Below are positions 1 through 59,470 of a DNA stretch of 64,000 nt, piece by piece. The first letter of the stretch is position 1, and every line of letters starts with the position of its first letter. Under the pieces are notes generated by a model, which saw only the letters and a program-made list of their open reading frames with translations, searched no databases and was not told where the DNA came from. The DNA is from Xiphophorus maculatus (lineage: Eukaryota; Chordata; Actinopteri; Cyprinodontiformes; Poeciliidae). The position numbers and the translations under genes are program-made. The stretch is from NCBI RefSeq assembly GCF_002775205.1, contig NC_036447.1:7552501-7616500 (forward strand), in the 5' to 3' direction.

Positions 1-720
1 AGTGATGAAGGCACAATTTCAGGTTTAAATAACGAGTCTGACATAGGCACAATCGCTGGCACTGACCAAGACTATGAGGGTGGAGGGATGATTGATGTCA
101 TGGGTGGACAGGAACCAAGAAAGGGCAAAACGAGGCAAAAGGGGAAGAGAGGTGGAGAGGTGAAAGAAGGAGGTAAACGTGGAAAAGGAGGCAAGATGAG
201 AAAATCACGTAGACGTGGAGAAGGAAGCAAGATGAGAAAATCACGTAGACGTGGGAAAAGAGGCAAGATGAGAAAATCACGTAGACGTGGAAAAGGAGGG
301 AAGATGAGAAAATCACGTAGACGTGGAAAAGGAGGGAAGATGAGAAAATCACGTGGACGTGGGAAACGAGGCAAGATGAGAAAATCACGTAGACGTGGGA
401 AAGGAGGCAAGATGAGAAAATCACGTAGACGTGGAAAAGGAGGCAAGATGAGAAAATCACGTAGACGTGGGAAAGGAGGCAAGATGAGAAAATCACGTAG
501 ACGTGGAAAAGGAGGCAAGATGAGAAAATCACGTAGACGTGGAAAAGGAGGGAAGATGAGAAAATCACGTAGACGTGGGAAAGGAGGCAAGATGAGAAAA
601 TCACGTAGACGTGGAAAAGGAGGCAAGATGAGAAAATCACGTAGACGTGGGAAAGGAGGCAAGATGAGAAAATCACGTAGACGTAGAGGTGGGAGGCGTA
701 GAAGCAAGAGAAGGGGGTAG
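1..720 (+). CDS. Last exon of a D-type secreted protein with basic repeat tail (5' part outside window)
   Basis: The window opens inside the final coding exon; the reading frame is open from base 1 and stops at 718-720. The first 180 bases encode an acidic, Gly/Ser/Thr-rich linker, followed by a basic segment and 14 copies of a 12-residue unit of the type GKGGKMRKSRRR. Outside the tandem units the sequence is almost identical to 27,128-27,811, the end of gene D, so this is a recent paralog whose secretory and core exons lie left of the window. By analogy with gene D the full protein should have a signal peptide, a deaminase-fold core lacking catalytic residues, and this cationic tail. The tail has 14 units against 13 in D. 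The function is unknown; binding of nucleic acid or other polyanions is inferred from composition only. Confidence 0.8.
   Translation, partial: SDEGTISGLNNESDIGTIAGTDQDYEGGGMIDVMGGQEPRKGKTRQKGKRGGEVKEGGKRGKGGKMRKSRRRGEGSKMRKSRRRGKRGKMRKSRRRGKGGKMRKSRRRGKGGKMRKSRGRGKRGKMRKSRRRGKGGKMRKSRRRGKGGKMRKSRRRGKGGKMRKSRRRGKGGKMRKSRRRGKGGKMRKSRRRGKGGKMRKSRRRGKGGKMRKSRRRGKGGKMRKSRRRRGGRRRSKRRG
181..690 (+). repeat. 36-bp coding minisatellite, 14 units
   Basis: The motif AAGATGAGAAAATCACG recurs exactly every 36 bases from 193 to 661 (14 copies). The strand is almost purely A and G except for the CACGTAGACGT stretch of each unit. Units differ mostly by one base (GGAAAAGG or GGGAAAGG, GGC or GGG, GGA or AGC). 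The period is 12 codons, so unit gain or loss keeps the frame. Confidence 0.95.
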
Positions 721-6206: not shown

Positions 6207-7571
6207 ATGGGTTGCCTGTTCTTGATGGTGCTTTCACTGACTGTGTTGCTGCTTGATGCAAACAATTTCCCACCTGTAAACATGGGCCGACTACAATATG
6301 CAGTTTCACAAATCTTGAATCGGTAAGTTGAACTTCTTTATTTTTGTAGTAAAACTGGCTGTCAATTGATTCCAGTATTTAACTGGGTATAATTAATCAT
6401 GTTTCTAAAATATGTCTGTGTTCTTCCTCAGCTACAGACCAATCTATGAGGTTGAAGGTCAAAGGTGCGCAAGTTACAACATTCATGATTTTTGAGTTCA
6501 TCTAAACAACAGAACAGTTTGGAACTTACAAAAAAAGAAGTGACATTTAATCTGTCATTTTAATTTCAAATAATAAAAAACCTAAGTTACTTTTGACAGG
6601 TCTTTAATTAGTTTATAACATTTTTTGCTTTTTGTTTATTGAGTTATTAAAAATAATAAGCTGCAGAGTAAAAGTCAATATTTTTGTTTTCATGTGTTTT
6701 AGGTTTTTGTTCTGGTTAAATAATTAGTACAGTAATGTTTGTGTGTTTTAGTAAAATACACAAAAAAAAATAGGGTTGGTAAAGTTGTGAATTTATTCCT
6801 GACATTGTTACATCTGATGTTTTACACACTAATCAGATTTCCATCTAAATCGACTGTCTGTTTTTGTGTTCAGTACATTTTTCTGTTATTTCTTTTGACA
6901 GGAAAACCCCCATGTTCAGTGTGGTTGCGAGAATCCCGTTCAACAGTGAAACTAATCAGTATGATATCAACCAAGTCACTGATGATGCCAATAATGTAAA
7001 GGACACCATTGTAGGTTGTGAGGTTTACACTGGAACAAATATACTGGCAGCCACAGTTTTAAGATGGCCTGATGTTGTGGATCAGTGTCCGGATGGACGT
7101 GTTCAGTGGCCTATAAGAAGCCAGGCTACAACTTGGGCGGACGCGTACTGTCAGAATACGAGGTCATTTAATGAAGGCAGAGCTGAGCATGCAGAGTATC
7201 GTATTCTGCAGAACTTGGATACTTGGCTCAACAATCAAAATATGGGACAAGACCTGTTGCTTTTTTACGCCTTTGGTTCTCCATGTACTGCAACATGTAC
7301 AAACAGAGACAGTCCCTATAATATTCTGAGTCCCTTGACAGGCTATGTAGAGTTTAACATAGTGTTTGTGTTTTCTAAAGTGCACCAGCCTAGAAATGTC
7401 ATTATGTCTCCAGACGTTCTACAGGATGCTCTGAAGAACCTGGGGGGAACAATCGGTCTGGACCGCATATTTCGTTGTGATAGAGTGAATGGTAGGATAA
7501 AATGTGTAAACTGTAAAGATAATGAAAATGTTGCTGGGTGGTGTTATGATGATAATCAACCGCCAGCCTAA
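6207..7571 (+). CDS. Gene A: secreted AID/APOBEC-like cytidine deaminase homolog
   Basis: Three coding exons, 6,207-6,322, 6,432-6,464 and 6,902-7,571, join in frame to 272 residues. The ATG directly follows the acceptor TTTTCAG, as in genes B, C and D. Residues 1-18 or so form a hydrophobic signal peptide with no later membrane segment. The zinc-deaminase signature is complete: H146-A-E148, 28 residues, P177-C178, three residues, C182, with Ser before PC and hydrophobic strands DLLLFY and FNIVFVFSKV around it. This spacing falls within the APOBEC range. A C-terminal motif C242-x8-C-x2-C-x9-C264 follows. The family resembles the secreted novel AID/APOBEC-like deaminases (SNADs) reported from fishes; that assignment is from memory. 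The substrate is unknown. Polyadenylation signal AATAAA at 8,020. Very close paralog of gene B. Confidence 0.8.
6585..6740 (+). repeat. Intron 2 block shared with the flanks of D-type genes
   Basis: This stretch of gene A intron 2 matches 1,120-1,280 and 28,210-28,370 almost base for base, with slightly more divergence in gene B intron 2. It shows the origin of those flanking copies. Confidence 0.7.
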
Positions 7572-9430: not shown

Positions 9431-10674
9431 CTGGTGCACTCACATCTGACGTTTCCTTAAAGCGTTGTTTCCTCTGATTATGTTCACTTTATCAACACCT
9501 TTACTCCTGACACAAAGAGAAAACATCAGAAGCGTCTTTACAGCACGAAAAGGTAAAGATTTTTGTTACGAACATTTCTGTTAAGATGTTATTTAAGTCT
9601 TACTTCACTATAAAAGCCAATTCACTGGACATCCGAATATCTAAAATTGCCCAAATTAACAAATTATTTTAATGTTAAATTTGCACTACACCCCCCAAAA
9701 GCCTAGTTGTTAAAGATATTTCATTTTAGAATTAAGATTTTCATTTTTATGTCATAACATGGACGACTGTAGGGGATACAGTATTTTTGTATGTAGAAAA
9801 AATACCTTAGCATTACTTCCTTGATACGTAACATTTATCATTGCTGTACCTGATGAAGCAGTGCAGTTAGTTGTTTTGTGTATTTTTAATTGTTTAGATA
9901 CCTGTAATGTGATGAAGATTCTGTCTCTTTAGCGTTTTCTTCAGATTTGGATTTATTTTATCAAGACTAAAATCTTCAGATGAAGCACATTTCAAAAATC
10001 AGCTAACATAAGAAATACAAAAAACTAATTTTAAATGAAAATTTTATCTGCTATGGAAAAAAACCTGCCACATCTAACTATAGACTTTAAAAACTGGTAG
10101 CAACATTCTTGGCGTCAACAAATGTAAACCAAAAAAAAAACTAGCAACCTGTTTGCATTGCTGTAGATGAATGTTTCTTGATTTATGCCTTGAAAGTTGT
10201 TTCAAAAATAAGGTTGTTCTTACTTTCTTGATTTTTCTGCTTTTTAAAACTTTTCTTTATTCCACCAACTGAAATATTTTTAAGCTGACATTAAAGTCCA
10301 CCCAAATAATCCCATAATAATAATGTGAAAAAGCATAAATGTGAATCTTGCCCCATCTCATGCCATTGATCTCCTGTAATTACAATTTTAAATACTTGTC
10401 ATCACAATTTTAGTAACAGAACATCTCTCCAGAGTACACTGTCATTGGAAACATGATTCTTCAGTCTGATTGTCTTATCACACAATGAAACAAGGACCTG
10501 TTGTTCTGAAACACTGACATGTTGATGGATACAGATATTTAATTTTGAGAGATTAACTAAGAATTTTTAGGAAGATACTGGCTTTTGAGAAATGCAGTTT
10601 TGCAAATGTTTTGAGATGAAAAATGGTAACTTCAGACACTGTCAGCCCTCTTCCCCCATTAAACTCTCTGTACA
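9431..10674. other. Upstream region of gene B, no clear exon
   Basis: AT-rich. CACGAAAAGGTAAAG at about 9,544-9,558 could be the donor of a leader exon for gene B by position, but no TATA box as clear as those of A, C and D is visible. No other feature recognised. Confidence 0.35.
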
Positions 10675-10806
10675 GTGAATCCACTAAGTGAGCGTGATGT
10701 TAAACTTTAAATGTTAAAATAAGACATTTAAATCAAAGGTAAACATAAATGTTCACTTTTGTCTAGTAAAAAATACTGAACTGAAAATGAACTGAACTGT
10801 TTTCAG

Positions 10807-12762
10807 ATGGGTCTCCTGTCCTTCATGGTGCTTTCACTGATGCTTTCACTGACTGTGTCGCTGCTTGCTGCAAACAGTTTCCCGCCTGCAGTGGACGAGG
10901 CCCAGCTAAAAAATCTAGTTTCACAAGTGTTGAATCTGTAAGTTTAATTTCTTTGTTTTCTGTAGGGAAACTGGATGTAGACAGATTTCTTATGTTTCAC
11001 TGGGTGCAATTAAAAATGTTTCTAAAACATGTCTGTGTTCTTCCTCAGCTACAGACCAACATACGAGTTCAATAATTCTATGTAAGTTACAGCATGCTTG
11101 ATTTTTAATATACAAACAACCGAATACTTTGGAGCTGCAAGAAAAGAGGGGACATTTAATGTGTAGTTTAAATTTCAAATAGTAAATTACAGAAATAACA
11201 AAACTTACTTTTTATGATAATTTTTAATTCTTAATTAAGTTATTAAGCATAGTAGGCTGTAGCATAGAATCAGTGTCAATACTTTTAGTTTTTATGTGTT
11301 TCTGCTTTTCATTCTGATTAATTACTAAAGCAATCTGTGTATGAAAAATAATAAAACTCAATAGATAATCAATTCCCATTGATACTTAAACATCAACTGT
11401 TAAACTGTAATTTATTTGTCTGGTTTGGCATTGGACTGGACCAAACATCGATCTACATGGACTGTTTATAACATTTTTTTGATCTTTAATTTATTCTTTT
11501 TACATTTACAGTGAAATTTATTACAGTACTTCCGATTGTTTACACACATACTGGTACTTGAGTCACAACGACCACAACATGCACAAAGCCCCTGAAGCAA
11601 TTCTGCCACAAGCATAATTCCTGCTTTACTCTGAAATTGCAGTTTTAAAACACACATTTTTCAAAACACTGCACACAGTTTTCTGCATTTGGGACAATTT
11701 TCATGAGGAAAATCTATTGTTTCTAAATTTCTAAGTCAATTGCCCTTAACTTAGAATTATTAAGGGCATGTAGGCCTTCTGGACCTACTTGGGCGCACAA
11801 GTCCGCTCATGATGCGCCCCAATAGACGCCTCCCTGGGTGTTTGTACAGATCGACACTGTAAAATACACTATAGGTAAGATACAAATACCAAGCTTGGTC
11901 AAGTAGTGAATTTATTCCTCACATCTTTCTGTCCTATGTCTGATATTTTGCACACTAATCAGGTTTCCATATCATTTGATTGTCTGTTTTTGAACTGTGT
12001 TCAGTAATTTTTTCTGTTATTTCTTTTAACAGGAAAACCCCCATGTTCAGTGTGGTTGCGAGAATCCCGTTCAACAGTGAAACTAATCAGTATGATATCA
12101 GCCAAGTCACTGATGATGCCAATAATGTAAAGGACACCATCGTAGGTTGTGACGTTTACAATGGAACAAATATACTGGCAGCCACAGTTTTAAGATGGCC
12201 TGATGTTGTGGCTCAGTGTCCGGATGGACGTGATCAGTGGACTATAAGCAGCCAGGCTAGAACTTGGGCGGACGCGTACCGTCAGAATACGAGGTCATTT
12301 AATAAAGGCACAGCTGTGCATGCAGAGTATCGTACTCTTCAGAACTTGCGTACTTGGCTCAACAATCACAATATAGGACAAGACCTGTTGCTTATTTATG
12401 TCTATGCTTCTCCATGTGCTAAGAGATGTACAAACAGAGACAATAAGGGTAATATTCTGAAACTCTTAACAGACTACGTAGAGTTTAACATAGTGTTTGT
12501 GTTTTCTAAAGTATTCAAGCCTAGAAATACCATTATACCTCCAGAGGATCTACAGGATGCTCTGAAGAACCTGGGGGGAACAATTGGTCTGCAACGCATA
12601 TTTCGTTGTGATGAAGTGAATGGTAGGATGAAATGTGTAAACTGTAGTAATAATACTGGAAATATTACTGGGTGGTGTTATGATGATAATCAACAGCCTG
12701 GCAAAAAAAGGCAGGGGGTAAACAGTAGGTGGGGCTCCCATGATTCATTACATGAACTTTAG
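10807..12762 (+). CDS. Gene B: secreted AID/APOBEC-like cytidine deaminase homolog
   Basis: Three coding exons, 10,807-10,937, 11,049-11,081 and 12,033-12,762, join in frame to 297 residues, with the same borders and phases as gene A. A signal peptide ends near LLAA (residue 22). The catalytic signature is H151-A-E153, 28 residues, P182-C183, three residues, C187. The C-terminal motif is C247-x8-C-x2-C-x10-C270, one residue longer in the last loop than in the paralogs. The stop used by gene A is bypassed by a frame change near the end, adding about 20 residues. Differences from gene A cluster around the PC-x3-C loop (AKR against TAT) and are mostly amino-acid changing. Polyadenylation signal at 13,330. 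Extracellular enzyme by inference; substrate unknown. Confidence 0.8.
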
Positions 12763-13559: not shown

Positions 13560-14003
13560 AATTAAAAAATGTTTGGATTATTTCTCATGAATCTGCACTC
13601 AGCATCCCATCAGGACAGAAAGAACTAGAAATGTAGACATTTTTGCAAATTTATTAAAAAAGAAAAACTGAAATACTGCACATGGTCACGTGATATTTTA
13701 GTTTTTGTTGCGTTTTGTTTTGTAAAAAAATTTCTACACTTCTTTTTTTTCTGTAAAGAAACAGTAAAACAGTAAAACTAAGACGTATGATATCAGCATC
13801 TCCTATGTCTTATTCTCATTATTAATTATTAATGAGAAATAATTATCTGTCCTTATTTATGAGAAATAATGAAGAATTATTTCTCATTATTCACGAGAAA
13901 TAATATTAACTTTTTTGATTTTAGCAAATGGCTGCAATGAAACAAAGAGTGAAAAACTTAAATAGGTCTGAATACTTTCCGTTCCCACTGTACCTGTTTA
14001 GTA
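13560..14003 (+). repeat. Tc1/mariner-like hairpin repeat
   Basis: Left part TTTCTCATGAATCTGCACTC and TTTTTGCAAATTTATTAAAA, right part AATGGCTGCAATGAAACAAA then GGTCTGAATACTTTCCG with CACTGTAC. This is a widespread fish repeat pattern recognised from memory. The interior carries the TTATTTCTCATTATT palindromes at 13,810-13,915. Confidence 0.5.
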
Positions 14004-14353
14004 TCTTATCTTTGTTCAGGGCCACTAAAGGGTCGATGGAACCGCGTTTCATTCATGCATGAATTGCAGTCAAGCACAAATTTGCATTTCATCACCATGT
14101 ATAGAAGCACTATTACAGCCTCCTACTAACTTCCTCAGAATTTTATAGAAGCAGAAGTGCAGAAAGAGATGAACAAACCATCTTTTTTAATCTCTGTATC
14201 TTAATTTCCATCTGCAAGTTAGAATGAGGCGGCAAAACTGGGTTTGGTATTTCTCAACATCTTGGGTTCTCAAAGGACTTTTCAGAATTAAGGTTGAGAA
14301 AGTCATCTGTTCTTGCATGATTAGTTTCAAAAGAGGTTAAAACTGGTCACACA
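13667..14353 (+). repeat. Duplicated block also present at 2,821-3,520
   Basis: See the partner block; here it follows gene B's 3' region and continues into sequence absent from the partner. Confidence 0.85.
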
Positions 14354-14424
14354 CATACAAAAATTCACATACTGACATCAACTCATCAAGTTATGAACAT
14401 AAACTCCAGCAGCATATCTACCTC

Positions 14425-18775: not shown

Positions 18776-21190
18776 ATGAAAGGCCTGTTCTGGGTGACTG
18801 TGGTCTTCTTCCTGTCTGTTGAAAACACCTCGGCTGCTGTAGACCAGAAATGGCTTACAGATATTGTGCAAACCATCAAGAATAAGTGAGTAATTGAGTT
18901 GCTTTGTTTTACCTATAAGCTGCAGAAGTACAGAAAGTGAAGCATAGAAAACCATGGCCTTGAACTGATATGAAAATGTGTCAAATGAAACACATTAATG
19001 AAATTTGTAGAACCAGATACAGAACATCCACTCCTCATCCTCATGAACCACTTTAGAAAATACTCAAGCTGTGAGAAAAAGCTTGAGATCCAGACGTAGA
19101 AAGGGACAAATGAATTTGATGCATTTTGTTATGATGTAAAGCACTTTGAAATGCCTTGCTGCTGAAATGTGCTATACAAATAAAATTTGATTGATTGATT
19201 GATTGATTATCTTTAAAGACTTGTTTGTAATATGGCTCTTTTTGTTTTGTACAAACTCCAAAAAGGGGCACATTCCCCAGCTCACCAATGACTTTTTACC
19301 AATGGCCCCTTACACATAATACTTTAGGAAACACTTGCATCCTTTGTTAAAATAACTCTCTATAGTGACAACTGACTTGTGCTCTACAGGGTTCAGAGTA
19401 AGCAGATATGATCCATAATTTTTTTAACATTTCTTTCATTATTAAGACTGTAGTTTTAATATCAAAGACTCAGCCTGATGCTTCACTTGGATTCTACAGT
19501 TTTGCTAAAGTGAAGCCTCTGCAGAACAACTGAAGGCTCATTTTAAACCGTTTTATAACCCGAAGTAAAAACAACCTTTTCTCTGCCATTACCTCCGGTT
19601 TTTGGTTTATAATCCACAAATACCAGTATGAAAAACCAGTGGACCTAGATGCCAAAGGAGAAATACTGTGTGCTATATTAGTATTAGTATGTTATATAAA
19701 AGACAAATGTCTTGTTGTTAACTACTGTTCAGAAACCATTTGCTGCATTTTTGTTGTTGGTTGTGCAGGAGGCTCTGCTTCTGCTTTACAAAGATGTGCA
19801 GTCATATTATTGTGCATGTGTTTGCAACCATTTTCACATGCAAGTGTAAACCTTGAGCAGCAGCTTATTTGGATTTAAAGTGACAAGAGGCCCTAAACCA
19901 ACTCATTCTGAAAGGAGCTGAAAATAGGCAGAACTGATCAGGCTAAAATCTCATTATCCAACAATGATTTTGTGCAATAAATTTCATGAACATGTTTTGT
20001 TTGGCCCATAGACCTATCCTAACCTGTTCAAGGACAGGTCTTTTGTAAAAACCTTCTATCTTATTCCAATGTTTTACACTAAAACTAATACTGACAGCTG
20101 TGAAATGTTTTCTTGTGACAGGTATCAGTTGGGTGACACTTCCAGTTGGGCTGTAAATATACCACAGAACCAAGATCCAAGCCATCTGATGGAAGTTCTG
20201 CAGGAAGACCCACCAGATGCAGTGAAAATAGCAGTTTCAAAGAGTGACGTGTATCAAGGCAAAAGAATGACAGTATCAACACAGTCAGTTGCAATACCCC
20301 ATGTGTTAGAGAAAATAAAAGTCAGCCAAACAGGAAACCAGGGCAACACCATCATAATCTATTCTGAAAAATACCAAAATATAAATGAGAATGGCATTGC
20401 TGCCAACATTAACAAAATCATTCATAGTTGGGGACGTTACGCCTTTGTATTTTCCAAAGTAGTTGATGTTGCTGATGCTGGGATACCTGCCAGGGCTGAG
20501 CTCTTTAAGCAGCAGGAACTTTCCAAATTTGGGCTAGAAAATATATTTCGTTGTTATGAACCTGGTGGTTCTTTCCAGTGCACAAGCTGCGGCTCTGTTG
20601 AAAATGTTGCTCCTTCTTGTCTTGTAAACACACCACCATCAAATGACGTCACAGAGTTGGAAAAACGCAGATTTAAAGAAGCTAGAGGAGGTGGAAGAAA
20701 GAGGAGAGGAGGAAGACGTAGGAAAGGTGGCGAGGTGAAGGGAGGAGGAAGACGTAGGAAAGGTGGCAAGGTGAAGGGAGGAGGAAGACGTAGGAAAGGT
20801 GGCAAGGTGAAGGGAGGAGGAAGACGTAGGAAAGGTGGCAAGGTGCAGGGAGGAGGAAGACGTAGGAAAGGTGGCAAGGTGAAGGGAGGAGGAAGACGTA
20901 GGAAAGGTGGCAAGGTGAAGGGAGGAGGAAGACGTAGGAAAGGTGGCAAGGTGAAGGGAGGCGGAAGACGTAGGAAAGGTGGCAAGGTGAAGGGAGGAGG
21001 AAGACGTAGGAAAGGTGGCAAGGTGAAGGGAGGAGGAAGACGTAGGAAAGGTGGGGAGGTGAAGAGAGGAGGAAGGCGTAGGAAAGGTGGGGAGGTGAAG
21101 GGAGGAGGAGGAAGACATTCAGGAGGCAATGTGGGAACAGTAAGAACATGTAAAATGCGTAAGAAGGTGGGAGGAGGAAGTAGTATTTAA
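18776..21190 (+). CDS. Gene C: secreted deaminase-fold pseudoenzyme with GRRRKGGKVKGG repeat tail
   Basis: Two coding exons, 18,776-18,885 and 20,122-21,190, join in frame to 392 residues. The ATG follows acceptor CTCAG. A signal peptide covers about residues 1-21. The core (38-205) aligns with genes A and B at AVNIP, the FVFSKV strand and the motif FRC181-x8-C-x2-C-x9-C203. About 40 residues before the active site are missing. H97 is followed by VL instead of AE, and no PC-x3-C remains, so catalysis is not expected. From residue 224 the protein is a Gly/Arg/Lys tail with 11 units of 12 residues. The small exon of A and B is absent. A frame-preserving stretch of the same composition continues 39 codons past the TAA. 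Polyadenylation signal AATAAA at 21,413. A cationic extracellular ligand-binding or antimicrobial role is only inference. Confidence 0.75.
19134..19206 (+). mobile_element. Short SINE/LINE 3' tail in the gene C intron
   Basis: AAGCACTTTGAAATGCCTTG, CTATACAAATAAAATTTG and a GATT microsatellite are a common fish retroposon tail. It is missing at the matching point of the paralogous block (about 32,297), which is an empty-site comparison and shows insertion after duplication. Confidence 0.65.
20711..21109 (+). repeat. 36-bp coding minisatellite of gene C, 11 units
   Basis: GACGTAGGAAAG recurs every 36 bases from 20,714 to 21,038, with a variant unit at 21,074. Unit consensus encodes GRRRKGGKVKGG. 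The strand is almost pure purine. The period equals that of gene D's array, but the consensus differs. Confidence 0.95.
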
Positions 21191-21412
21191 GGTGGCAATG
21201 TGGGAAAAGGAAGAAGACGTGCCAAAGGAGGCAAGAGGGAAAGAGGAGGAAGACGTGCAAAAGGTGGCAGGTCAGGAGGAAAAAGAGGAAGATGTGGAAA
21301 AATGTCATAGGGTAAAAGGAAAAGGTCATATGAAATATGGTAGGGTGAAAACAGGCCAAATATCTAAAACCAGAAAATAAGAACAAAAAGCTGTCATGGG
21401 TTTTGAGGATAC

Positions 21413-21418
21413 AATAAA
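21413..21418 (+). terminator. Polyadenylation signal of gene C
   Basis: AATAAA about 220 bases after the stop codon. Confidence 0.6.
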
Positions 21419-21949
21419 GCAGCTTTGAAACCAACAAAGTATTGACCATTCTTAATTTTTAAAATCTAATACATTCAAGTAAAAAAGTTATTTTCAATAA
21501 AATAATGTTGCCATATATGCCTATTTTTTAAAAAGCAATTGAACATTGTGTTACAATTGAACATTGTAACACATTGTTTGCCTGCATTAAAAGTAAAAAA
21601 ATAAACTTAAAAATGTGTTGTTTGTGGTTTTGTACAGAAAACTACTTAGCCTTGCTTTTGTACATGTAAACAGTTTTAAAATGTGTGTAAAACCTAACAG
21701 AAACTGTTCACTGCAATAAGAAAAGCAACTATTTTGTAATTCTATTGCTTTAGAATGAATAGCATTGGTGTTGTCTTGTCACCTGGGTTTTAGCTAGTCA
21801 CAGCCATAAAAAGTACCAGGGACTAATGTACTATAGATCAAATTCCTGTGGGAAGAAGTCAGGTGCAGTATGAGGTTGGTGGCAATAGCAGGGACCAATG
21901 CATGCTAATTCTGGGCATTGCAAAAAGGTTTTTGAGTCAAAGGTTTTGG

Positions 21950-22780
21950 GTGCTATCTTGCTAGATACCATGTATCTAGCAAGAAAGACACGTAAGTTGT
22001 GCTTCTGGGGGCAGTAATGTTTGTCTGGAGAAAAATGAATCTACCAGGAAGGTTGTGATAAGGAGGAACAGCTTCCCCAAATTGAATCTGAGCTTTGCTG
22101 GCATGGGATGCCCATAGCAGACGTGTGTTCGAGCACAAGGTGGTTCAAACGTGTATTTTGTATCCTGTCATTGGTCTACTGGTCGATTTTGTAATCATCA
22201 GACTTGTGGTATTAGTTCATCTAAGGACCGAGCTATCAACTGAACACCACCTGTTAGTGAGTTTCATCAACTGGCAGGGAGGCTATGGGCAGACCTGGGT
22301 CTTGTTTGTGAAAACAACGAGTAGTGGAAGTTATCAAGCTAAAGAAGGAAGTCTTCAGGGCTTCGCTGGGGATTCCTGAAACAGCTGGCAGGTATGGTCA
22401 GACGACCTGCAGCTTCTGTGGTCAAGGAGGCAAGAATGTAGGAATATGAGGAATTTAGAAAAACTTTTGTTTGACAAACAAGGAAATTCTGTAACTTAGA
22501 AAGAAAAATAGGTTTGGTTTTTTGTTGGGGCTGAAGCCAATGAGATGACAGAAGTCACTGAGGGAATCAAAACAAATTACCGGCACCTAGTTGGTAAAAG
22601 ACATGCTGAAGGCTCTGGACATTGTGGGGTTGTTGGTGTTGACCTGCCCTTGCAGTGTTGCATGTGGGACCAGGACAACATTTTCAGTGGTGATGGTCCA
22701 AACTTTCAAGAAAGGTATCAGAACAGTGTGCTCCAACAATTCTCATGCAGGGCAGTGTGCCTTGAGGACCAGGGTTGGGA
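21950..22780 (+). mobile_element. Decayed LINE fragment: end of endonuclease, start of reverse transcriptase
   Basis: Short translated pieces in shifting frames match a common fish LINE: FEHK..QT and ELSTEHHLLVSFINWQGG (endonuclease end, about 22,125-22,280), then ALDIVGLLVLTC and FKKGIRTVCSN (start of the reverse transcriptase, about 22,610-22,735). Stops and frameshifts are frequent, so it is an old, dead copy without either end. Clade uncertain; an RTE-like element is my best guess. Confidence 0.6.
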
Positions 22781-22830
22781 AATACTGCATTACACCACTT
22801 CTGCTACATTTAACATATAAACAGGGACAT

Positions 22831-24030
22831 TAGCCTTTCTTGCACGTGTTGTACTTGTACTTAACAAACTGCACTACACGCACTTCATTAAGTATTCGGG
22901 TGTTGCCTTAATTTGAATCTCTTGAAGTAAGTTGATTGTGATATCTCCGCTTCTGTTTTCTGGAAGTTGTGAACGATATTATTCACAGTTGTTTTCAAGG
23001 GATATTCTTTACATCCTGACGTCATGCATAACTTGAATGACACAATGACCCGCAATGAAAATAAATGTTCAAGTTGAGATTCTGAGCCGTTTTTTGGAAC
23101 CACCACAGCAGTATTGCAAGCCGGGTCAAACTAAGTGTTGCACAAAATCAATTTCTTTCTCCAGCCTTGCCCTTCACATATTGTAATCCTTCAAAAAATT
23201 ATCTTGTATATTTTTAATGTAGTTGTAAAGCTAATCATTTAAAGCAGCATTCATATAAGAATGTTTTTTGACATCTAGTATGAGGGTGATTTTATGTTAA
23301 ATCTGTTGATTCTACAACACACATTTAGAGTTAATTGAGTAATTTTTAATCAGCATGGAGATTAAACTGCTTTTCTAAACAACCAACATGCACAAATGCA
23401 GAAGTTTAATGCAGCCGTTGTTGCATTTTAGGACATATTTTGCTGCATCACATGCATTCTGACTGATATTAGTAAAACAAGCGATGTGCAGTAATACTGA
23501 AGGTTGCGATCAACAATATGTTGATATGGACAATATCATGTCAAAGCTGATCTGATGGATTGAGATCTGCTGACTAGAAAGACCACTGAAGTATAATAAT
23601 CCTATTGATATATTCCATGCTTTAAAACTTCAAACACATAGCAGATCTGTGAAAATGTCGGGTAATAATATATGCAAACTTATGACCATTAACACTTTGG
23701 TGCAAGGACGCCTTTATTGAATGATTTGCAAATGTATTGCTTTAAGTGAAATACTTTTACACCTTTTTAAGTTCCTCTTCCCTGAGTTAAGTGGTACAAA
23801 ATACAAATAATTGAAAGAGGATTATTCATCGTGCATATATTCTTATTACACCAAATATACCAAGACCCTGAGAAGGAGTATGATAAAAACTTTTTTTTCT
23901 TGCTAAACACAAGTAAGATATTTTTGAGCAATCCATTATTTTAGCACAATTCTAGTAAATGCCTCTATCAATGCTTTAGCCGATTCAAGTGTGATAGGTT
24001 TGGCCAAATTTGCAGGCGTTGTTCAATGAG
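22831..24030. other. Intergenic between genes C and D, no gene recognised
   Basis: AT-rich with no exon-like open stretch beyond about 70 codons and no named repeat. Confidence 0.5.
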
Positions 24031-24050
24031 GTGTTCATTTCCTGTTCATA

Positions 24051-24482
24051 CATATAATAAAAAACGCTTCCTGTCCGAGCATCACTATAGAAGAACTGGC
24101 AATAGCACCCAGAAAAAGTGGACGACTCCTTGTGCATCTAAACGAGAGGTAACAATAAAAAAAAATAACTGTTTTATTATTATAACAATGTAACAATTTC
24201 TTGACTAAAAATGCACAACAGCTTGGATTATGTTTGAGTTGCATACTCATTATTTGTGAAAAAATTAGAAAGCTTTCAATTGCAAAAAAGTAGTTTAAAA
24301 TGTCATACATTTTTAACCAATAACTCAATTTGCCATTAAATAAATAATCTCTACTACAGCTAAATGTGGTTTAACAGGAGTAATACAATATTTTTTTAAA
24401 ATTTTGAACTATAAAACCTTGTATTTTTATTTCATGTCATCAGACTTGGAGCTGGCAGATTCCTCTGGAACTCAGCAGGAAG
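24051..24482 (+). promoter_or_regulatory. Probable promoter and two leader exons of gene D
   Basis: A TATA-like CATATAATAAAAAAC lies at 24,051-24,065. A leader exon ends at 24,148 (ACGAGAG then GTAACA). A second leader exon spans 24,444-24,482 (acceptor CATCAG, donor GTAAAAC) and resembles gene C's second leader exon (CTCAGCAGGAAG against CTGCAGAAAGGAAG). The layout matches genes A and C. Confidence 0.5.
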
Positions 24483-24715
24483 GTAAAACTATCAATTTAT
24501 TTATATTTTCAAATTTATTTGATCAGGGACAAGACATCCCTGGTCAAGATTTTTAAAGGTTAACCTCTAAAACTGATGAGACAAAGAAACCTATTTAAAA
24601 CTAACGGTAAAATGATACTTGTATTTACATATCAAAGTATAATCATTGCATCACTTGTCATGAACTTGGTTACATGATTTTATTATTTTCTTAATGTTGG
24701 ATTTGATCCATTCAG

Positions 24716-27700
24716 ATGGCTGTCCTGTGCTGGGTGGTTCTGGTTCTGGCCGTCTTCCTGTCTCCTCAATGCAGTCTAGCCGCTGTAGACGAGGCCTGGC
24801 TAACCGACATTATACAAAATCTCAAAAATGAGTAAGTTTTAAATCAGTTTTCATTGTTTCTTGTGTCTTTTATCCTCAAGAATATGGGATTGCATCAACT
24901 TATTTACAGGTTATTTGTAATTCAATTTGTTGAATTAAAAAACCAGAGCAGTAGCGATGCAGAGCCAACTTAGATGCTTGGATTTTGCAAGATCGCTGCA
25001 AAAAAGGCTACAGAGTGCACTGAAAAGCATCATAAATTATTATTTTAGGGAAAGTTAAAATTATATAGAGTGACTCTCTCAATTGAAAAACAAAAATAAT
25101 AAAACTAATATAGAAAAAGGGTCAGTGATTGCGTTTCTATCAACTTTTTTTTAACTTGCATTTTGAAATATTGCATTAGAAAAGGAAATGTCAAAATCCA
25201 AAATAACTTGCTCAATTTCACAAACAAATTTTTTACACTCCCTTTTAGTTCTTTCTGGCTTTTCCAAAACAGAGTTAATGTGCTAAAAGATAGACAGAAA
25301 CACATATGCTGAATAAGTTCTGACATAACGTACTTTATGATTCAGGCAAAAGAGTTGCAGTTCTTTTGTACAGATTTTGTGTAAGAGCAACAATTTAGCC
25401 ATAAAAGGCCAGAAGGTGACAGAACATTATGCTGAGTTGGATACGTTCTGCACTTAAAATCACAACAATCATTTTTAATGGTTTATTATCTGTCTTGCTT
25501 TGTCCACACTCCATTTAACTTCAAAGAAGATAGTAATTAAATCACCTACAGTGTTTTGGAGAATCGTGGCTTTAGTCACACTCTGGCCAAATGCCACTGC
25601 TCTGATGCCACTGTACTGCACCTGAATCAAATGAGTTGCTTACAAAAACCTGCTGACATGCTAAGGAGGTAATTAAGCCTTGTGATTGAGATGTTGAAGC
25701 AGGGATGCATCCAAAGTTGTAGGACAGAGGCACTGGAAATGTAGACCCCCGCTCTGGATGATACACCTCATTAAGATTTTAAGATGTTACTTTAATTGAC
25801 GTTTCCGCCACCTGGTGGCGTCACGTGGTATTTCAGAACTTTCATGGACTTATAATTTTTTATTTTTTTAGCAAGTTTGGGCAGAGATTTGATTAACACA
25901 GGAATCTGGGAAGGATCAGCTTTATTATTATTTTTTTTTATTTAGCTCATTTCTTACAATAAACAACCACTTAATTTAGTCCTTGCTATACCATTGTTGA
26001 TATAATTATGTTTTAAAAAATACAAAGTGCTTTTTAAAACACTTGATTTTGTTTGATAAATATTTTTGATACTTTTATTAATCTTTTTCATGCTAAAAGT
26101 AAGTATTTTGAAATAACTGTGTTATGTGCATCAGTTTATCAGGGTCATTAAATTTCTGCCCAAAATTAAAAATTGTTGAGATCAAACTCTGAAATTTTCT
26201 GTAAAAAAAAAAAAAAGGGAGAATATTACAAAAAAATAGTTTTGAAACTCAAAAATTTCTAAAAAATTTCAGTTTTTCAAACAAATTTTTGACTTCTGGA
26301 ACTGTACAATGATCCTTGTCATACATTATAGCTTTGCTATGTAGAAATGACAAAAAAAACTCATCGATGGTAGTTATTGTAATGATAATAAACAATTTAA
26401 AAGCAATATAAGCAAATTCATTTTAATATAATGATAACTTGTAGTTTGCAGGTATTTGCTGCAATAAAATGCAATTGTCAGACTGACTCAAGGTTTTTTT
26501 ATCTTGTCAAATTATCAGCTGATATGAACTGGAATATTGATCATTTTTGTGTGTCTTTTTGATAGGTATGAATTGGGTGACAGCTACAGTCTGGTTGTCA
26601 ACCTCCCTGTGAACCAAGACATAAGCAGTCTTGCAGAAGTTCTTAAGGATGACCCTGCAGATGCAGTGAAACAAGCTATTTCAACGGGTCAAGGGTACCA
26701 AGGCACGAGGGTTGTTGCAGCTGCCCAGTCTGGAGCACTGGCCCATGTTCTAGAGAAAATACAGCCCCTCATAAAAAGCAGTGATGGCAACGTCCTCATC
26801 GTCTACTCTGAAGGCTACCCTGATGCAAATGGCATTGACAACAAGATCAGTAACATTGTTCAGAACTGGAAGAGTTATGCTTTTGTGTTTTCTAAAGTAG
26901 CTGATGTTGCTGATGCTGACACGCTTGCGAGGGCTGCAATGTTCAAAGAGCAAGAGGTTTCAAAGTTTGGGCTTGAAAACATATTCCGTTGTTATGAGCA
27001 AAGCGATTCTTTTCAGTGCACAAACTGCAAAGCAGGCGATAATGTTGCACCATCCTGCGTTGCAGATACAATGCAATCAGGTGCCAACGAAGAGACAGCA
27101 GTAGGTGCCACAGAGCCGCCTACAGGAAGTGATGAAGGCACAATTTCAGGTTTAAATAACGAGTCTGACATAGGCACAATCGCTGGCACTGACCAAGACT
27201 ATGAGGGTGGAGGGATGATTGATGTCATGGGTGGACAGGAACCAAGAAAGGGCAAAACGAGGCAAAAGGGGAAGAGAGGTGGAGAGGTGAAAGAAGGAGG
27301 TAAACGTGGAAAAGGAGGCAAGATGAGAAAATCACGTAGACGTGGAAAAGGAGGCAAGATGAGAAAATCACGTAGACGTGGGAAAGGAAGCAAGATGAGA
27401 AAATCACGTAGACGTGGAAAAGGAAGCAAGATGAGAAAATCACGTAGACGTGGGAAAGAAAGCAAGATGAGAAAATCACGTAGACGTGGGAAAGGAAGCA
27501 AGATGAGAAAATCACGTAGACGTGGGAAAGGAGGCAAGATGAGAAAATCACGTAGACGTGGGAAAGGAGGCAAGATGAGAAAATCACGTAGACGTGGGAA
27601 AGGAGGCAAGATGAGAAAATCACGTAGACGTGGAAAAGGAGGCAAGATGAGAAAATCACGTAGACGTGGAAAAGGAGGGAAGATGAGAAAATCACGTGGA

Positions 27701-27811
27701 CGTGGGAAACGAGGCAAGATGAGAAAATCACGTAGACGTGGAAATGGAGGCAAGATGAGAAAATCACGTAGACGTAGAGGTGGGAGGCGTAGAAGCAAGA
27801 GAAGGGGGTAG
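24716..27811 (+). CDS. Gene D: secreted deaminase-fold pseudoenzyme with acidic linker and GKMRKSRRRGKG repeat tail
   Basis: Two coding exons, 24,716-24,831 and 26,566-27,811, join in frame to 453 residues. Signal peptide about residues 1-22, then AVDEAWLTDI shared with gene C. The core (40-205) keeps VNLPVNQD, FVFSKV and FRC181-x8-C-x2-C-x9-C203. At the active-site position H99 is followed by VL, and the PC-x3-C cysteines are absent, so it should not be an active deaminase. Residues about 205-247 form an acidic Gly/Thr/Ser/Asp/Glu linker not present in gene C. The rest is basic with 13 twelve-residue units. Downstream AATAAA near 28,076. The nearly identical exon at 1-720 belongs to a paralog. 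Cellular role unknown; secretion and polyanion binding are inferred. Confidence 0.78.
25560..25800 (-). repeat. Dispersed repeat in gene D intron
   Basis: CCTGAATCAAATGAGTTGCT, GAAGCAGGGATGCATCCAAA and GGACAGAGGCACTGGAAATG match a frequent teleost repeat that often contains CTGCAGGACAG. No coding capacity. Confidence 0.45.
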
Positions 27812-28783
27812 ATAGCTAACAGTGCATAACAATCTGCTTTGCCAAATTTTGAGCAACAAAAACATTTAACATTAGTTTAAAAAATCAGGTACTTTGCAAA
27901 AGTGTTTTTACTTCATTTAATCTGATGAAACCATTGGTTTTGTCTGGCTAAATAAACATAATTCATTTATCTGTATTGACATGATTTATTTGAAAGGATG
28001 CTGTCGTGTTTTGCTTTTCTATATCACAGAATTCCAACTATTTATGTGGAACCTTGATATTTTTGCTACTTTTGAATAAAGTTTGCTTTAGCATTTTAAT
28101 GTCTCTTTCTGTCCATCATATTTTAACTCACATGTGTCAAACTCAAGGCCCATGGGCCAAATCTGGCGCACCATAGCTTTTTATGTGGCCCTCTAGATCT
28201 GTTTAAATAACCCAAGTTACTTTTGACAGGTCTTTAATTAGTTTCTAACATTTTTTTGCTTTTTGTTTATTGAGTTATTAAAAAATAATAAGTTGCAGAG
28301 TAGAAGTAGAGTCAATATTTTTGTTTTCATGTGTTTTAGGATTTTGTTCTGGTTAAATAATTAGTACAGTAATGTTTGTGTGGAAAAATAATAAAACTTA
28401 TTGCACAGATCATCCATTTCTATTGATGAAATCCACATTCTGAAAAATTGGTTCTTGTTTAACTGTGATGTACCTGCCTAGTTTGGGATTGGATTGGACC
28501 AAATATCAGGCCTGTCACGATAACAAATTTTCCTGGACGATAAATTGTTCCAGACATTATTGCAATAAACAATAATATTGTTGTTTTGAGACCATTTTTA
28601 AGTAATATGATGGTAATGACAAAAACACAAGAACACATTCCCAAAGATCAGTAAACTTTAAATTCTAATGAACATTTAATACTGGAACTGGAAGACAGTT
28701 TAATATCCAAAATAAGTAAACAAAACAACAAATGTAAAATGAATTTTGGAGTCTTTCTAAACAAAATTGTCCTTAAAAAAGGG
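27128..28783 (+). repeat. Duplicated block matching 1-1,692
   Basis: The two blocks match from the linker codons of the D-type exon through the 3' untranslated region, the ACATGTGTC repeat, the A/B intron-2 piece and the GACGATAAATTG repeat. They part at 1,692/28,783, where the left copy meets a fossil LTR and this one meets an inverted B-type gene piece. Confidence 0.9.
27308..27775 (+). repeat. 36-bp coding minisatellite of gene D, 13 units
   Basis: AAGATGAGAAAATCACG recurs every 36 bases from 27,320 to 27,752. Several interior units carry AGC or GAAAGC where the left-edge paralog has GGC, while the first and last units agree between paralogs. Confidence 0.95.
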
Positions 28784-28910
28784 TTAGATGACACCAAACT
28801 GAAGACTTTTATCTTAAAATTTAAACTGCACATTAAATGTCCCCTCTTTTCTGTCAGCTCCAAAGTATTCTGTTGTTTGGATATTAAAAATCAAGAATGC
28901 TGTAACTTAC

Positions 28911-29184
28911 AGAGAATTATTGAACTCGTATGTTGGTCTGTAGCTGAGGAAGAACACAGACATGTTTTAGAAACATTTTTATTGCACCCAGTGAAACATA
29001 AGAAATCAGTCTAAATCCAGTTTCCCTACAGAAAACAAAGAAGTTAAACTTACAGATTCAAGACTTGTGAAACTAGATTTTTTAGTTGGGCCTCGTCCAC
29101 TGCAGGCGGGAAACTGTTTGCAGCAAGCAGCGACACAGTCAGTGAAAGCATCAGTGAAAGCACCGTGAAGGACAGGAGACCCAT
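28911..29184 (-). pseudogene. Inverted partial B-type deaminase gene (coding exons 1 and 2 only)
   Basis: On the minus strand, exon 1 is 29,184-29,054 (131 bases, same length as gene B) and exon 2 is 28,943-28,911 (33 bases), with acceptor and donor sites kept. Exon 1 is open and encodes MGLLSFTVLSLMLSLTVSLL, one change from gene B. The inverted homology runs from about 28,812 to 29,320, matching gene B 10,675-11,177. The third exon with the catalytic domain is missing, so no enzyme can be made from this copy alone. It could still give a short secreted peptide if transcribed. Confidence 0.8.
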
Positions 29185-30599
29185 CTGAAAACAGTCCAGT
29201 TCATTTTCAGTTCAGTATTTTTACTTGACAAAAGTGAACATTTATGTTTACCTTTGATTTAAATGTCTTATTTTAACATCTAAGGTTTAACATCACGTTC
29301 ACTTAGTGGTTCACTTAGTGGACAGCTGTAGGAACTGATTCTGTTTGTCTATTCTTTGCAGGTGCAAAGCAACAACTCTGGTAAATAACCTTCAGAGTTT
29401 TAAAATGTTCAATCATCCTCTTCAGAAAATTATTCAGTTTAATTTCAATTCAGTTTTTACTTTCAATCTATCATCAAATCTTGCTTAGTTTACCTCAACT
29501 TCTTTGGTAATCATTCAAAAACAAACAAACATGATGAATGCAGATAAAAGATCTTGCGAAAATGTGTTTTGTACCACAGCTTTCTTGAAGGTCATTACCT
29601 CATGACGAAGCATTTCACAATTCATATAGAGGGAAACTGCAGCAACATGCCGTTCTCCGTGCAGAGACAAAAGAAGAAATGAACATGTTGCAAAAGCAGC
29701 AACTTAATTAAAAGTCATGCATGAATTTTCTACATATCATCCAACTGTCGACATAAAACCTACTCTGATGTTGAAATATATATTAGAAACTTTCTTTTCC
29801 TCCCTGGTTCAGTTAAATTAGAATAAGTTGCATCCAAGTGAAAGTTGTTTTGTTTTTTTTATTAAAATATGTTTTCTGCTAAAGAAGTATACACTCCAAA
29901 ACAAGTACGTTATAAATCCTAACAAAACCCAATATGTAATCCTATATCTCTTGACACTACTGTACACTTTTCTTATTACTGATGGAAATTCACAAAACAT
30001 GCGGTGAATTAATGAAGAAGCTGCTATCAGTTTTGCACACATGAAATGGTGACCACAATGGTGAGACCAAAGAGAAGTTTTTAGTTTTTATTTGACTGAT
30101 GACATCAGTTTTTTGTGGTCAAACCACTACGCAAATAATTGGTGTAAATGTACATTTACATATAGATATGAAAAATTTGCAATAATTCAGTTCTTTCAAA
30201 AGAAATGTTCACAAAATGATTTCCCGTTGTTTAATCTCTGCAATAGAAAAAGATTTAAATGCTTTTAAACAGCAAATTTGTTTTACTCATTGCAGGCATC
30301 AACAAATAAAAATGAATTTAGGACATTATGCACAGTAACTGATCAAAATATCTTCCGCTAGACAGTTATCTCAGTGATTCACCATTTTCTTACATCAGTC
30401 TTCCAGCTGTTAAATGTTTGAGAGGTTTCATGTTTGTAAAGCTTTTGTAAGTCGTCCATGTTTGGGTCATTGTTATGTTGCAGTGTCCAATTCTGCTTTA
30501 GCTTAATAATTATTTCTATGGAAAAAGGTCTCATATTTTCCTTAAGCTCCTTCAGGTGATGGAGAGTTAAGGCCATACTGAAAAATTAAAAAGCAAAAT

Positions 30600-30910
30600 G
30601 ACATGAATAAAGTTATAAAATCAGAAGAATAAAGTTGAAACATTAGAATTAAGTTGTACGAGACTAAAGTCACAATATTACAAGAATAAAATAATAAAAG
30701 AATAAAGTCACAATATTACAAGAATAAAATCGTACAAAAATAAAGTCATATTATAAGAATAAAATCATAAAAGAATAAAGTCATAATATTACAAGAATAG
30801 TTTTAATGTTATGACTATTCTCATAATATTGACTTTATTTTTTTATTATTTTAACCTTATTATCGTACAACATAATTGTCCTAATGTTACTACTTTATCC
30901 TTGTGATATT
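30600..30910 (+). repeat. Expanded AATAAAGTCA-type palindromic repeat
   Basis: Longer version of 17,470-17,730 with extra AGAATAAAATCATAAAAG-like units. Confidence 0.6.
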
Positions 30911-31506
30911 ATTTTTTTTTTTCTTAGCTTAGCCCTAACACTCCGCTGTCCTGATGCCCAGTTTAATTAATGGTGGATTTTATTATGGCGAGTAGTTCAG
31001 GTCCGGCTGCAGAAAAACTTCCCCACATCATGACATTTCCAGCGCTGTGCTTCACAGTTGGTATGAAACGTTTTTGCTTTTTTCCTGCGTTTGATTCATG
31101 CCATGTTCTCTGATCTGGGATGCAAATAAATGATTTTAGACTCAGCTGTCCAAAGAACAGTGTTTCTAAAAAGCTGAGTTAGGTGGTTTGGTGTCAACCA
31201 CCAAAACCTTTTTGTTGTTGCATTTATTTCCACATTCAAACAAAAATATAGAAATAGACAAAAAAGTGTGTATTAAGATGTAGCTTCACACAATCCGTTT
31301 CCTAGATTTATCTTTTTCAATCTTCCACCAATAAGCCAACTAATTTAATATTTTAAATGAATTAAATTTTCACAAACTTCAAATACTCAAATGTTCTGAA
31401 TCATTTTCACATTAGCTCCTGTTTGCTTTCTTATCTACATGACAGGAAGGTAGTGAAAAATAACATTTCATCACATACAGATACAAGCTCCAGCATGGGT
31501 TTGCTG

Positions 31507-31744
31507 TGACTCACAGGTTCCTATAAAATAAAGCTCTTCAATGTGCCACGTTCATCGACAAGTGGAGCAGAAAACTTCTGTACTGCATCTGTTAAAGGTA
31601 GAACATTTAATAAAAACACTTCATTTCACTCTTTAAATTAAAACTGGTTACTGTTAAAAATAAACAAAACAGAGGGTAAATCTTATTTGTTTTAATCTTT
31701 TAGAGCAGCTGGACCAGCGAATTCAGCTGGCTGCAGAAAGGAAG
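31507..31744 (+). promoter_or_regulatory. Promoter and leader exons of the truncated C-type copy
   Basis: TGACTCA (31,507-31,513), TATAAAA (31,522-31,528), leader exon ending at 31,597 and a second leader exon 31,704-31,744, all as in gene C. Nine to twelve bases of the first leader are missing relative to gene C. Confidence 0.5.
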
Positions 31745-31946
31745 GTGTAATAATTTTTAAAATATTTCTTTATTATGTAATAAAACAAAAAGCCTATCTG
31801 TAAAATAAGCATCTACAATCTCAAATTAATTGTCAGTTTCTTACAATGCAATACTAAAATATAAATTTAAAACATTTCTTTTGCTACAGTGGTTAGCTTG
31901 TTATGTGAATTCAGATAATTTACTTTGTTATTTTTTCTTTGCTCAG

Positions 31947-32056
31947 ATGAAAGGCCTGTTCTGGGTGACTGTGGTCTTCTTCCTGTCTGTTGAAAACACC
32001 TCGGCTGCTGTAGACCAGAAATGGCTTACAGATATTGTGCAAACCATCAAGAATAA
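31947..32056 (+). pseudogene. Truncated C-type gene: signal-peptide exon without the main exon
   Basis: The exon encodes exactly the same 36 residues as gene C's first coding exon (MKGLFWVTVVFF through QTIKN) and keeps acceptor and donor. The homologous block ends 404 bases later, and no deaminase-like or repeat-tail exon follows before COMMD1. The gene is therefore broken at its 3' side. Identity with gene C suggests a very recent event. Confidence 0.8.
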
Positions 32057-32461
32057 GTGAGTAATTGAGTTGCTTTGTTTTACCTATAAGCTGCAGAAGT
32101 ACAGAAAGTGAAACATAGAAAACCATGGCCTTGAACTGATATGAAAATGTGTCAAATGAAACACATTAATGAAATTTGTAGAACCAGATACAGAACATCC
32201 ACTCCTCATCCTCATGAACCACTTTAGAAAATACTCAAGCTGTGAGAAAAAGCTTGAGATCCAGACGTAGAAAGGGACAAATGAATTTGATGCATTATCT
32301 TTAAAGACTTGTTTGTAATATGGCTCTTTTTGTTTTGTACAAACTCCAAAAAGGGGCACATTCCCCAGCTCACCAATGACTTTTTACCAATGGCCCCTTA
32401 CACATAATACTTTAGGAAACGCTTGCATCCTTTGTTAAGATAACTCTCTATAGTGACAACC

Positions 32462-36720: not shown

Positions 36721-36769
36721 CCACCCAAAATTGATACTGCAGTATTAATCGAAATTAATACCTCACCCA

Positions 36770-37570
36770 ACCGAAGGGCAACGCTAACCCCTTGCCCATC
36801 GGCAGGCGTCGTTCTCACACAAACCCCGCCGAAGGCAACGCTAACCCCTTACCCGTCGGCAGGGTTCGTTCTCACACAAACCCGACCGAAGGGCATCGCT
36901 AACCCCTTACCCGTCGGCAGGCTTCGTTCTCACACAAACCCCGCCGAAGGGCATCGCTAACCCGTTACCCGTCGGCAGGGTTCGTTCTCACACAAACCCG
37001 ACCGAAGGGCAACACTGACCCCTTACCCGTCGGCAGGGTTCGTTCTCACACAAACCCAGCCGAAGGGCATCGCTAACCCCTTACCCGTCGGCAGGATTCA
37101 TTCTCACACAAATCCAGCCGAAGGGCATCGCTAACCCCTTACCCGTCGGCAGGGTTCGTTCTCACACAAATCCAGCCAAAGGGCATCGCTAACCCCTTAC
37201 CCGTTGGCAGGATTCATTCTCACACAAATCAAGCCGAAGGGCATCGCTAACCCCTTACCCGTCGGCAGGATTTGTTCTCACACAAACCCGACCGAAGGGC
37301 ATCGCTAACCCCTTACCCGTCGGCAGGCTTCGTTCTCACACAAATCCGACCGAAGGGCAATACTGACCCCTTACCCGTCGGCAGGGTTCGTTCTCACACA
37401 AAGCCGACCGAAGGCAACGCTAACCCATAGGCAGGGTTCGTTCTCACACAAACCTGATTGAAGGGTAACCCTATCCCTTTGATACCTGTTTGTTAGGTTT
37501 GTTTTCACACTCACCCGACTGAAGGGTAACCCAAGCCTTTTACACTTTGGTCTGGCTTGCTTTCACACTT
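36770..37570. repeat. About 60-bp minisatellite with telomere-like CTAACCCCTTACCC core
   Basis: Some 12-13 units of the form TTCTCACACAAACCCGACCG, AAGGGCATCGCTAACC, CCTTACCCGTCGGCAGG, followed by two degenerate units to about 37,570. On the minus strand each unit has GGGTAAGGGGTTAG, reminiscent of the vertebrate telomere repeat and rich in G runs. Confidence 0.85.
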
Positions 37571-40334: not shown

Positions 40335-40520
40335 TAGCGATTCCTCAGCTTGACGGAAGCGATCCTCAGCTTCATTAAAGGGATCCTCAGCTTGACGGAA
40401 GCGATCCTCAGCTTCATTGAAGGGATCCTCAGCTTGATTGAAGGGATCCTCAGCTTGATTGCAGTATATCCATAAACGATCAACTGCTAGCAATCCTCAG
40501 CTTGATTGTAGTATATCCAT
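40335..40520 (-). repeat. 21-bp tandem repeat (GGATCCTCAGCTTGATTGAAG)
   Basis: About eight 21-base units alternate between CTTGACGGAAG and CTTCATTAAAG endings. On the minus strand they read as a 7-residue repeat of the type AEDPFNQ inside an open stretch of 103 codons (40,493-40,182) that ends with a hydrophobic segment. Without splice signals, promoter or homology I do not call a gene. Confidence 0.8.
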
Positions 40521-45940: not shown

Positions 45941-46127
45941 TATTATCAATTTCTCTGTACTTATGGAGCCATTTCACAAAATGCTTTTTAACTCTTATTT
46001 GAGTAATTTCTTGGACGGCTGCTTTTTACCTTTATTTAAGTAAAAACATGTTGAAGTAGTGCTACTCTAAACTTAAGTATAGAATATTATTATCTTCACA
46101 CTCTATTAGTCAATCTGATACGCAATA

Positions 46128-46147
46128 ACTACAACTCCCACAATGCC
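46128..46147 (+). promoter_or_regulatory. ZNF143/SBS-type site in the COMMD1 promoter
   Basis: ACTACAACTCCCACAATGCC closely matches the ACTACAATTCCCAGCATGC consensus bound by ZNF143. It lies about 60 bases before the COMMD1 start codon, where this factor commonly acts at housekeeping promoters. Confidence 0.7.
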
Positions 46148-59455: not shown

Positions 59456-59470
59456 ATTCACGGTGCACAC

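Follow-up and report, generated by a model that had tools for sequence, protein, structure and literature searches.

Introduction

Secreted AID/APOBEC-like deaminase 1 (SNAD1) is a described protein family, represented in Pfam by PF18744 (PMC11004436, PMC9207270). In the available text of these reports, SNAD1 proteins are present in nurse shark plasma and their entry into infected cells is suggested (PMC9207270), and SNAD1 genes of carp respond to temperature and to infection (PMC11004436). RNA is proposed as the likely SNAD1 substrate, the genes consist of two to four exons, and the C-terminal cluster comprises three cysteines, compared with four in genes A to D below (PMC11004436). Two of the sequences analysed there, XP_042609327.1 and XP_014353512.1, are without the zinc motif (PMC11004436).

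The window analysed here is a 64,000-nucleotide stretch of Xiphophorus maculatus DNA. Its plus strand carries a cluster of SNAD1-type genes, namely E (partial), A, B, C, and D, all of which lie before COMMD1. Genes A and B are SNAD1 genes of the active type. Genes C and D appear to encode secreted relatives with dead cores and long cationic repeat tails.

An earlier note had presented C and D as the best candidate for an undescribed system. That description is not supported, since the core belongs with the described SNAD1 family and rare members lacking the zinc motif are already in print, as the available text of PMC11004436 records. What appears to be new is the cationic repeat tail on a dead, SNAD1-derived core. 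The companion statement, that no described vertebrate protein was known to have this architecture, agrees with our literature and family searches, which returned none among the matches listed; Krishnan et al. 2018, cited for SNADs, lay outside their scope. A term search of the available text of PMC11004436 found no occurrence of "repeat", "lysine", or "arginine" and a single one of "tail", where it names a body part. The same kind of search in a second SNAD1 paper, PMC13402138, found neither "tail" nor "repeat".

SNAD1 Genes of the Active Type

6207..7571, plus strand: gene A, SNAD1, 272 aa; coding exons 6207-6322, 6432-6464, and 6902-7571; PF18744 E=2.4e-16
10807..12762, plus strand: gene B, SNAD1, 297 aa; coding exons 10807-10937, 11049-11081, and 12033-12762; PF18744 E=1.5e-14

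Both proteins exceed the PF18744 gathering score of 25 bits (A, 60.7 bits; B, 54.9 bits), and alignments identify HAE and PC..C in each. The leader and the C-terminal cysteine cluster are kept in A and B, and the repeat tail is absent from both. Positive selection between the two genes was considered and rejected (dN 0.151, dS 0.096, dN/dS 1.58; Fisher p=0.10). Downstream of the cluster, two stretches that match the COMMD1 N-terminal domain, 46055-46540 (Pfam E 1.8e-18) and 48335-48697 (Pfam E 5.2e-18), are read as COMMD1, and a galactosyltransferase match (PF01762, 3.2e-42) at 59456-60670 is read as a B3GNT2-like gene.

Gene Models and Cores of C and D

18776..18885, plus strand: gene C, first coding exon; ATG and hydrophobic leader, phase 2 end before GTGAGT
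20122..20620, plus strand: gene C coding exon 2, core part; very likely SNAD1-derived, without the HxE Glu and without PC..C; four C-terminal Cys
24716..24831, plus strand: gene D, first coding exon; ATG and hydrophobic leader, phase 2 end before GTAAGT
26566..27058, plus strand: gene D coding exon 2, core part; very likely SNAD1-derived, without the HxE Glu and without PC..C; four C-terminal Cys

Genes C and D span 18776-21190 and 24716-27811, stops included, and the spliced models encode 392 and 453 aa that read through the full repeat arrays without a stop. The interval first proposed for the pair began at 20681, which lies inside the last exon of C; the real coding starts are 18776 for C and 24716 for D. 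Each gene has two coding exons, compared with three in A and B, and core and tail share the single last exon behind the leader exon. All four genes (A, B, C, and D) have a phase 2 intron immediately 5′ of a shared Tyr codon, and in each of them the ATG directly follows an AG. AATAAA signals are found at 21413 and 21496 for C and at 27951 and 28075 for D. A TATA-like pattern for C lies at 18343. For D, the only promoter pattern match is at 24410 and gives no convincing TATA box; no promoter is assigned to this gene because that position is taken to be inside an intron. The N-terminal hydrophobic leaders, each on its own exon in the gene models, support the view that both proteins would be secreted.

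The C and D cores share 55.5% identity over 209 aa. Neither has the catalytic Glu of HxE or either Cys of PC..C, and the His depends on the alignment, with one alignment keeping H-x-x-E rather than H-x-E. About 42 residues are missing relative to SNAD1, 38 before the HAE helix and 4 at it. The four C-terminal Cys columns are invariant across A, B, C, and D. These losses support the prediction that C and D are catalytically dead, as deaminase activity is not expected without the Glu and the zinc Cys, and at the sequence level they bear out the earlier term "pseudoenzyme". Between the C and D cores, dN/dS is 0.302 for exon 2 (166 codons) and 0.330 when 203 codons are compared, with dS at 0.92-0.97, and replacement and silent changes in exon 2 differ (Fisher p=4e-9). 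Thus, the dead core has probably long been maintained as a protein. Core net charge is -11 in D and -2 in C.

Relationship to SNAD1

Common descent of C and D with SNAD1 is very likely, though both fall short of the PF18744 gathering score, because Pfam, profile-profile, and BLASTP matches are joined by the shared intron phase. The D core matches PF18744 at 7.8e-5 with 23.1 bits, below the 25-bit cut-off, and the match spans positions 147-212 of the 213 in the profile. At 16.2 bits, the C core does about as well against PF18744 as against the unrelated family PGM1_C_vert_fung (16.1 bits). With the tails included, the PF18744 scores drop to 18.7 bits for D and 13.7 bits for C. Profile-profile comparison of C plus D with A plus B gives a probability of 94.8 and an E-value of 5e-8 across 63 C-terminal columns, and BLASTP matches D to B at 1.4e-8 and D to A at 9.6e-8. 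C and D had been credited with a deaminase fold; by sequence their cores are very likely deaminase-derived, but the detectable match covers the C-terminal part of SNAD1 only. AlphaFold2 models of the D and B cores from the four-sequence alignment (pLDDT 39.8 and 42.3) were set aside as unusable.

Searches outside the window added no relatives. Against PDB by sequence at E<=1, the B core had 2 weak matches and the D core 7, none of which named a deaminase. In viral contigs, the B and D core queries hit 18 and 29 pattern stretches with no relative confirmed. A profile search of genome contigs with the four-sequence alignment gave 119 stretches and no relative in a collection without vertebrates, which is silent on other fish.

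C and D resemble A, B, and the fish and shark SNAD1s, as the latter are described in the available text, in their leader exon, C-terminal cysteine cluster, and clustered genes (PMC11004436, PMC9207270). They also have the intron phase and FVFSKV and GL..IFRC stretches in common with A and B. Unlike SNAD1, they lack the HxE Glu, the zinc Cys, and about 42 central residues, score below the Pfam cut-off, and carry an added cationic tail of 176-190 residues. By description, XP_042609327.1 and XP_014353512.1 are like C and D in having lost the zinc-coordinating motif within SNAD1, and the term search of the available text found no cationic tail or repeat for either (PMC11004436). Gadiform AID, which has little or no activity, is similar in being a fish protein of AID/APOBEC type whose catalysis is lost and whose full-length gene is kept, according to the available text of PMC9795746.

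Cationic Tails

The claim of long tails encoded by 36-bp purine minisatellites was confirmed by array calls from Tandem Repeats Finder and by the spliced frames. The array in C occupies 20706-21109 (11.2 copies, 97% matches) and that in D 27300-27775 (13.2 copies, 95% matches). A third array, outside the interval first proposed, lies in gene E at 173-684 (14.2 copies, 94% matches). Purines make up 31/36 positions of the consensus unit in C and 28/36 in D, counted by eye. Each unit encodes 12 Lys/Arg/Gly-rich residues, RRRKGGKVKGGG in C and SRRRGKGGKMRK in D.

20660..21187, plus strand: gene C cationic tail, residues 217-392, sharing its exon with the core; 20714-21109 holds 11 clean units; stop 21188-21190
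27059..27238, plus strand: gene D acidic linker, residues 204-263; 12 D+E, 0 K+R, net -12
27239..27808, plus strand: gene D cationic tail, residues 264-453; array 27300-27775; stop 27809-27811
1..720, plus strand: gene E (partial), D-type 3′ end; acidic linker and cationic tail, stop 718-720; open frame from base 1; core outside the window

The C tail contains 78 K+R, 5 D+E, and 66 G, for a net charge of +73, and the D tail 107 K+R, 4 D+E, and 43 G, for a net charge of +103. These tails make up 176/392 residues of C and 190/453 of D, consistent with the estimate that more than a third of each protein is repeat. Their placement directly after the four-cysteine motif applies to C, where the linker has 13 residues, but not to D, where 60 residues with a net charge of -12 intervene. 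Neither the D tail, the C tail, nor the D linker matched Pfam at E<=0.1. The two tails alone had 0 matches at E<=0.1 in NCBIfam, which serves bacterial and archaeal annotation, and the D tail had 0 matches among PDB sequences at E<=0.01.

Proposed Role

C, D, and probably the partial E may be secreted pseudoenzymes derived from SNAD1 that have lost catalysis and bind polyanions through a disordered polycation tail, a reading to which we give an even chance. SNAD1 occurs in shark plasma and responds to infection in carp, which would place C and D outside the cell in an immune setting. Polyanion binding is favoured because it is the simplest job for a disordered polycation. The protein would be exported and its core would fold with disulfides. 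The long tail, at +73 or +103, would then clamp by charge onto extracellular polyanions, with microbial surfaces, virions, released nucleic acid, and heparan sulfate as candidates, and this would keep the core, plus any paired SNAD1 enzyme, at the target surface. In D, the acidic core (-11) and linker (-12) could partly shield the tail. Minisatellite turnover would lengthen and shorten the tail, so selection would see its bulk charge and length and not its single residues.

Several known proteins offer partial parallels. The N-terminal domain of APOBEC3G would work in a similar way, as an inactive deaminase domain whose positive charge serves nucleic-acid binding; however, APOBEC3G is intracellular, has two domains per chain, and carries its charge on the domain surface rather than in a repeat tail. 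AID is also intracellular, unlike the secreted-looking C and D. Histone tails, protamines, and the proform of eosinophil major basic protein (proMBP) are polycations like the tails of C and D but are without a deaminase-derived core. proMBP shields its basic part with an acidic one, and the linker of D might do likewise.

In its most specific form, the proposal describes a teleost class of extracellular pseudo-deaminases that join a dead SNAD1 core to a histone- or protamine-like polycation, continually rebuilt by minisatellite turnover. Such proteins would capture released or viral nucleic acid and carry or hold the SNAD1 enzymes of the same cluster. This version is improbable as a whole, and tethering of active SNAD1s, which would require C or D to pair with A or B, is its boldest element. 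If it were true, the two active-type genes would have next to them a dead, polycation-tailed paralogue as a concrete tethering or delivery partner, and the locus would be a case of charge kept by selection under constant replacement of the sequence by a minisatellite. Such a paralogue would bear on the way in which secreted deaminases reach nucleic acid.

Evolution of the Tail

The tail may alternatively be a tolerated by-product, in which a purine minisatellite grew in the last exon and selection acted on the SNAD1-derived core only. This is unlikely, but the variation within the arrays lends it some weight. Variants were counted after degenerate units at the array edges had been set aside, which left 11 units in C, 12 in D, and 13 in E. 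D and E together have 7 distinct missense and 2 distinct synonymous variants, compared with about 69:25 expected (binomial p=1.0), although the variants of the two genes overlap through common descent and are non-independent; for D-type units, missense changes are expected at about 69%, synonymous changes at 25%, and nonsense changes at 6%. C has 3 distinct missense and 3 distinct synonymous variants. Because unit variants fit neutrality, selection at the level of tail residues was rejected. D and E also differ in copy number, all-purine codons give only K, R, E, and G, and the array edges are decayed, with the stop of C preceding older units:

21191..21310, plus strand: decayed in-frame repeat units past the stop of C (array rows 21202-21301); TAG 21308-21310

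These in-frame units suggest that the C array was probably once longer and that they are the probable remnant of an older array.

Other features of the tails argue against a by-product. The older-looking start of the D tail aligns with the C array over 53 ungapped bases, 43 of them identical, and its score of 56 is reached by 0/2000 dinucleotide shuffles (best 52) and 0/2000 codon shuffles (best 49). Two main D units score 42 against C, which 0/2000 shuffles reach (best 33). Given the homology of the two tail starts, the tail probably predates the C-D split and was later re-amplified from different units; this common start persists despite a core dS of about 0.9-1.0. Acidic residues are rare (5 and 4) though GAA and GAG are also purine codons. 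There are 0 internal coding-frame stops in the D and E arrays and the 11 clean C units, whereas each of the other two forward frames of C and D meets a stop roughly once per unit, with 10 and 11 stops over the 11 C units and 12 and 11 over 12 D units. Frame, acid rarity, and bulk charge thus seem to persist, and single tail residues do not look guarded.

E is closely related to D, with 97.4% identity between 1-648 and 27128-27775 and 96.0% between 209-1692 and 27300-28787. The linker and first tail bases are identical at 172/172 sites in the in-window part of E, whereas the 3′ flank differs at 27/969 (Fisher p=0.025). Either selection or gene conversion may explain this conservation.

Possible Alternative Functions or Loss of Function

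The tails may instead act as direct antimicrobial effectors that disrupt microbial membranes in the manner of cationic peptides or histones, with the dead core as a stable carrier. The very high tail charge with little acid, the secreted-looking leader, and the infection responses linked to the SNAD1 family in the available text of PMC11004436 are all compatible with such a role. The units are poor in hydrophobic residues, however: the D unit has one M and the C unit one V. Amphipathic insertion into membranes is therefore not evident, and we attach only a small probability to this explanation. Binding of polyanions by the charged tail remains the preferred reading.

It is highly improbable that C and D are non-functional, whether as pseudogenes of recent origin or as duplicates lying silent in a cluster that is unstable. 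Orphan exons and fragments do occur in the cluster, and a stop truncates the array of C, but both frames are intact, with splice sites and AATAAA signals, and the core dN/dS of 0.30 (p=4e-9) speaks for constraint. A peptide precursor, in which proteases would cut at an RRR cluster to release many short cationic peptides, has the slightest prospects and was rejected as a main idea in its furin-cut form: the RRR cluster recurs once per 12 residues in nearly every C and D unit, but by eye the repeated units lack the furin motif R-X-[K/R]-R.

Other Features of the Window

Several minor observations concern the arrays themselves. Most C units (20706-21109) contain AAG|GTGAAG, which is near the splice-donor consensus and makes cryptic splicing-out of the array conceivable. 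By eye, RGKGGK occurs seven times in the D tail (27296-27763); we take this to be a sequence also present in the histone H4 N-terminal tail, and the low complexity of the repeat makes a chance likeness likely. Long antisense open reading frames over the arrays were rejected, as low-complexity repeats lie beneath them and no other feature favours them.

Two leader exons stand apart from any complete gene.

29053..29184, minus strand: orphan, inverted copy of a B-type leader exon; 97.7% over 44 aa
31947..32057, plus strand: orphan second copy of the gene C leader exon; 37/37 aa identical

Around the B-type copy, 29315-28810 matches 10674-11181 at 95.5%. No core exon was found within the window 3′ of the C-type copy, which results from duplication of the segment 16211-19372 / 29321-32460; this segment includes the upstream region and leader exon of C, and its pieces are 95.8-99.6% identical. 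A fragment resembling the start of a SNAD1 core (SLVVRIPFNSKTKTYDIS) lies at 2911-2964 and is likely a decayed SNAD1 piece; the stretch around it, 2824-3521, is a 93% identical duplicate of 13669-14354.

Beyond the cluster genes, the minus strand at 40182-40496 contains a 104-aa open frame of acidic seven-residue repeats (NQAEDPF-like) over a 21-bp array, with no match in Pfam at E<=0.001. A 58-bp tandem array occupies 36765-37465 (12.2 copies, 89% matches), and a retroelement reverse transcriptase open frame (RVT_1, 4.4e-34) lies on the minus strand at 56219-57391.
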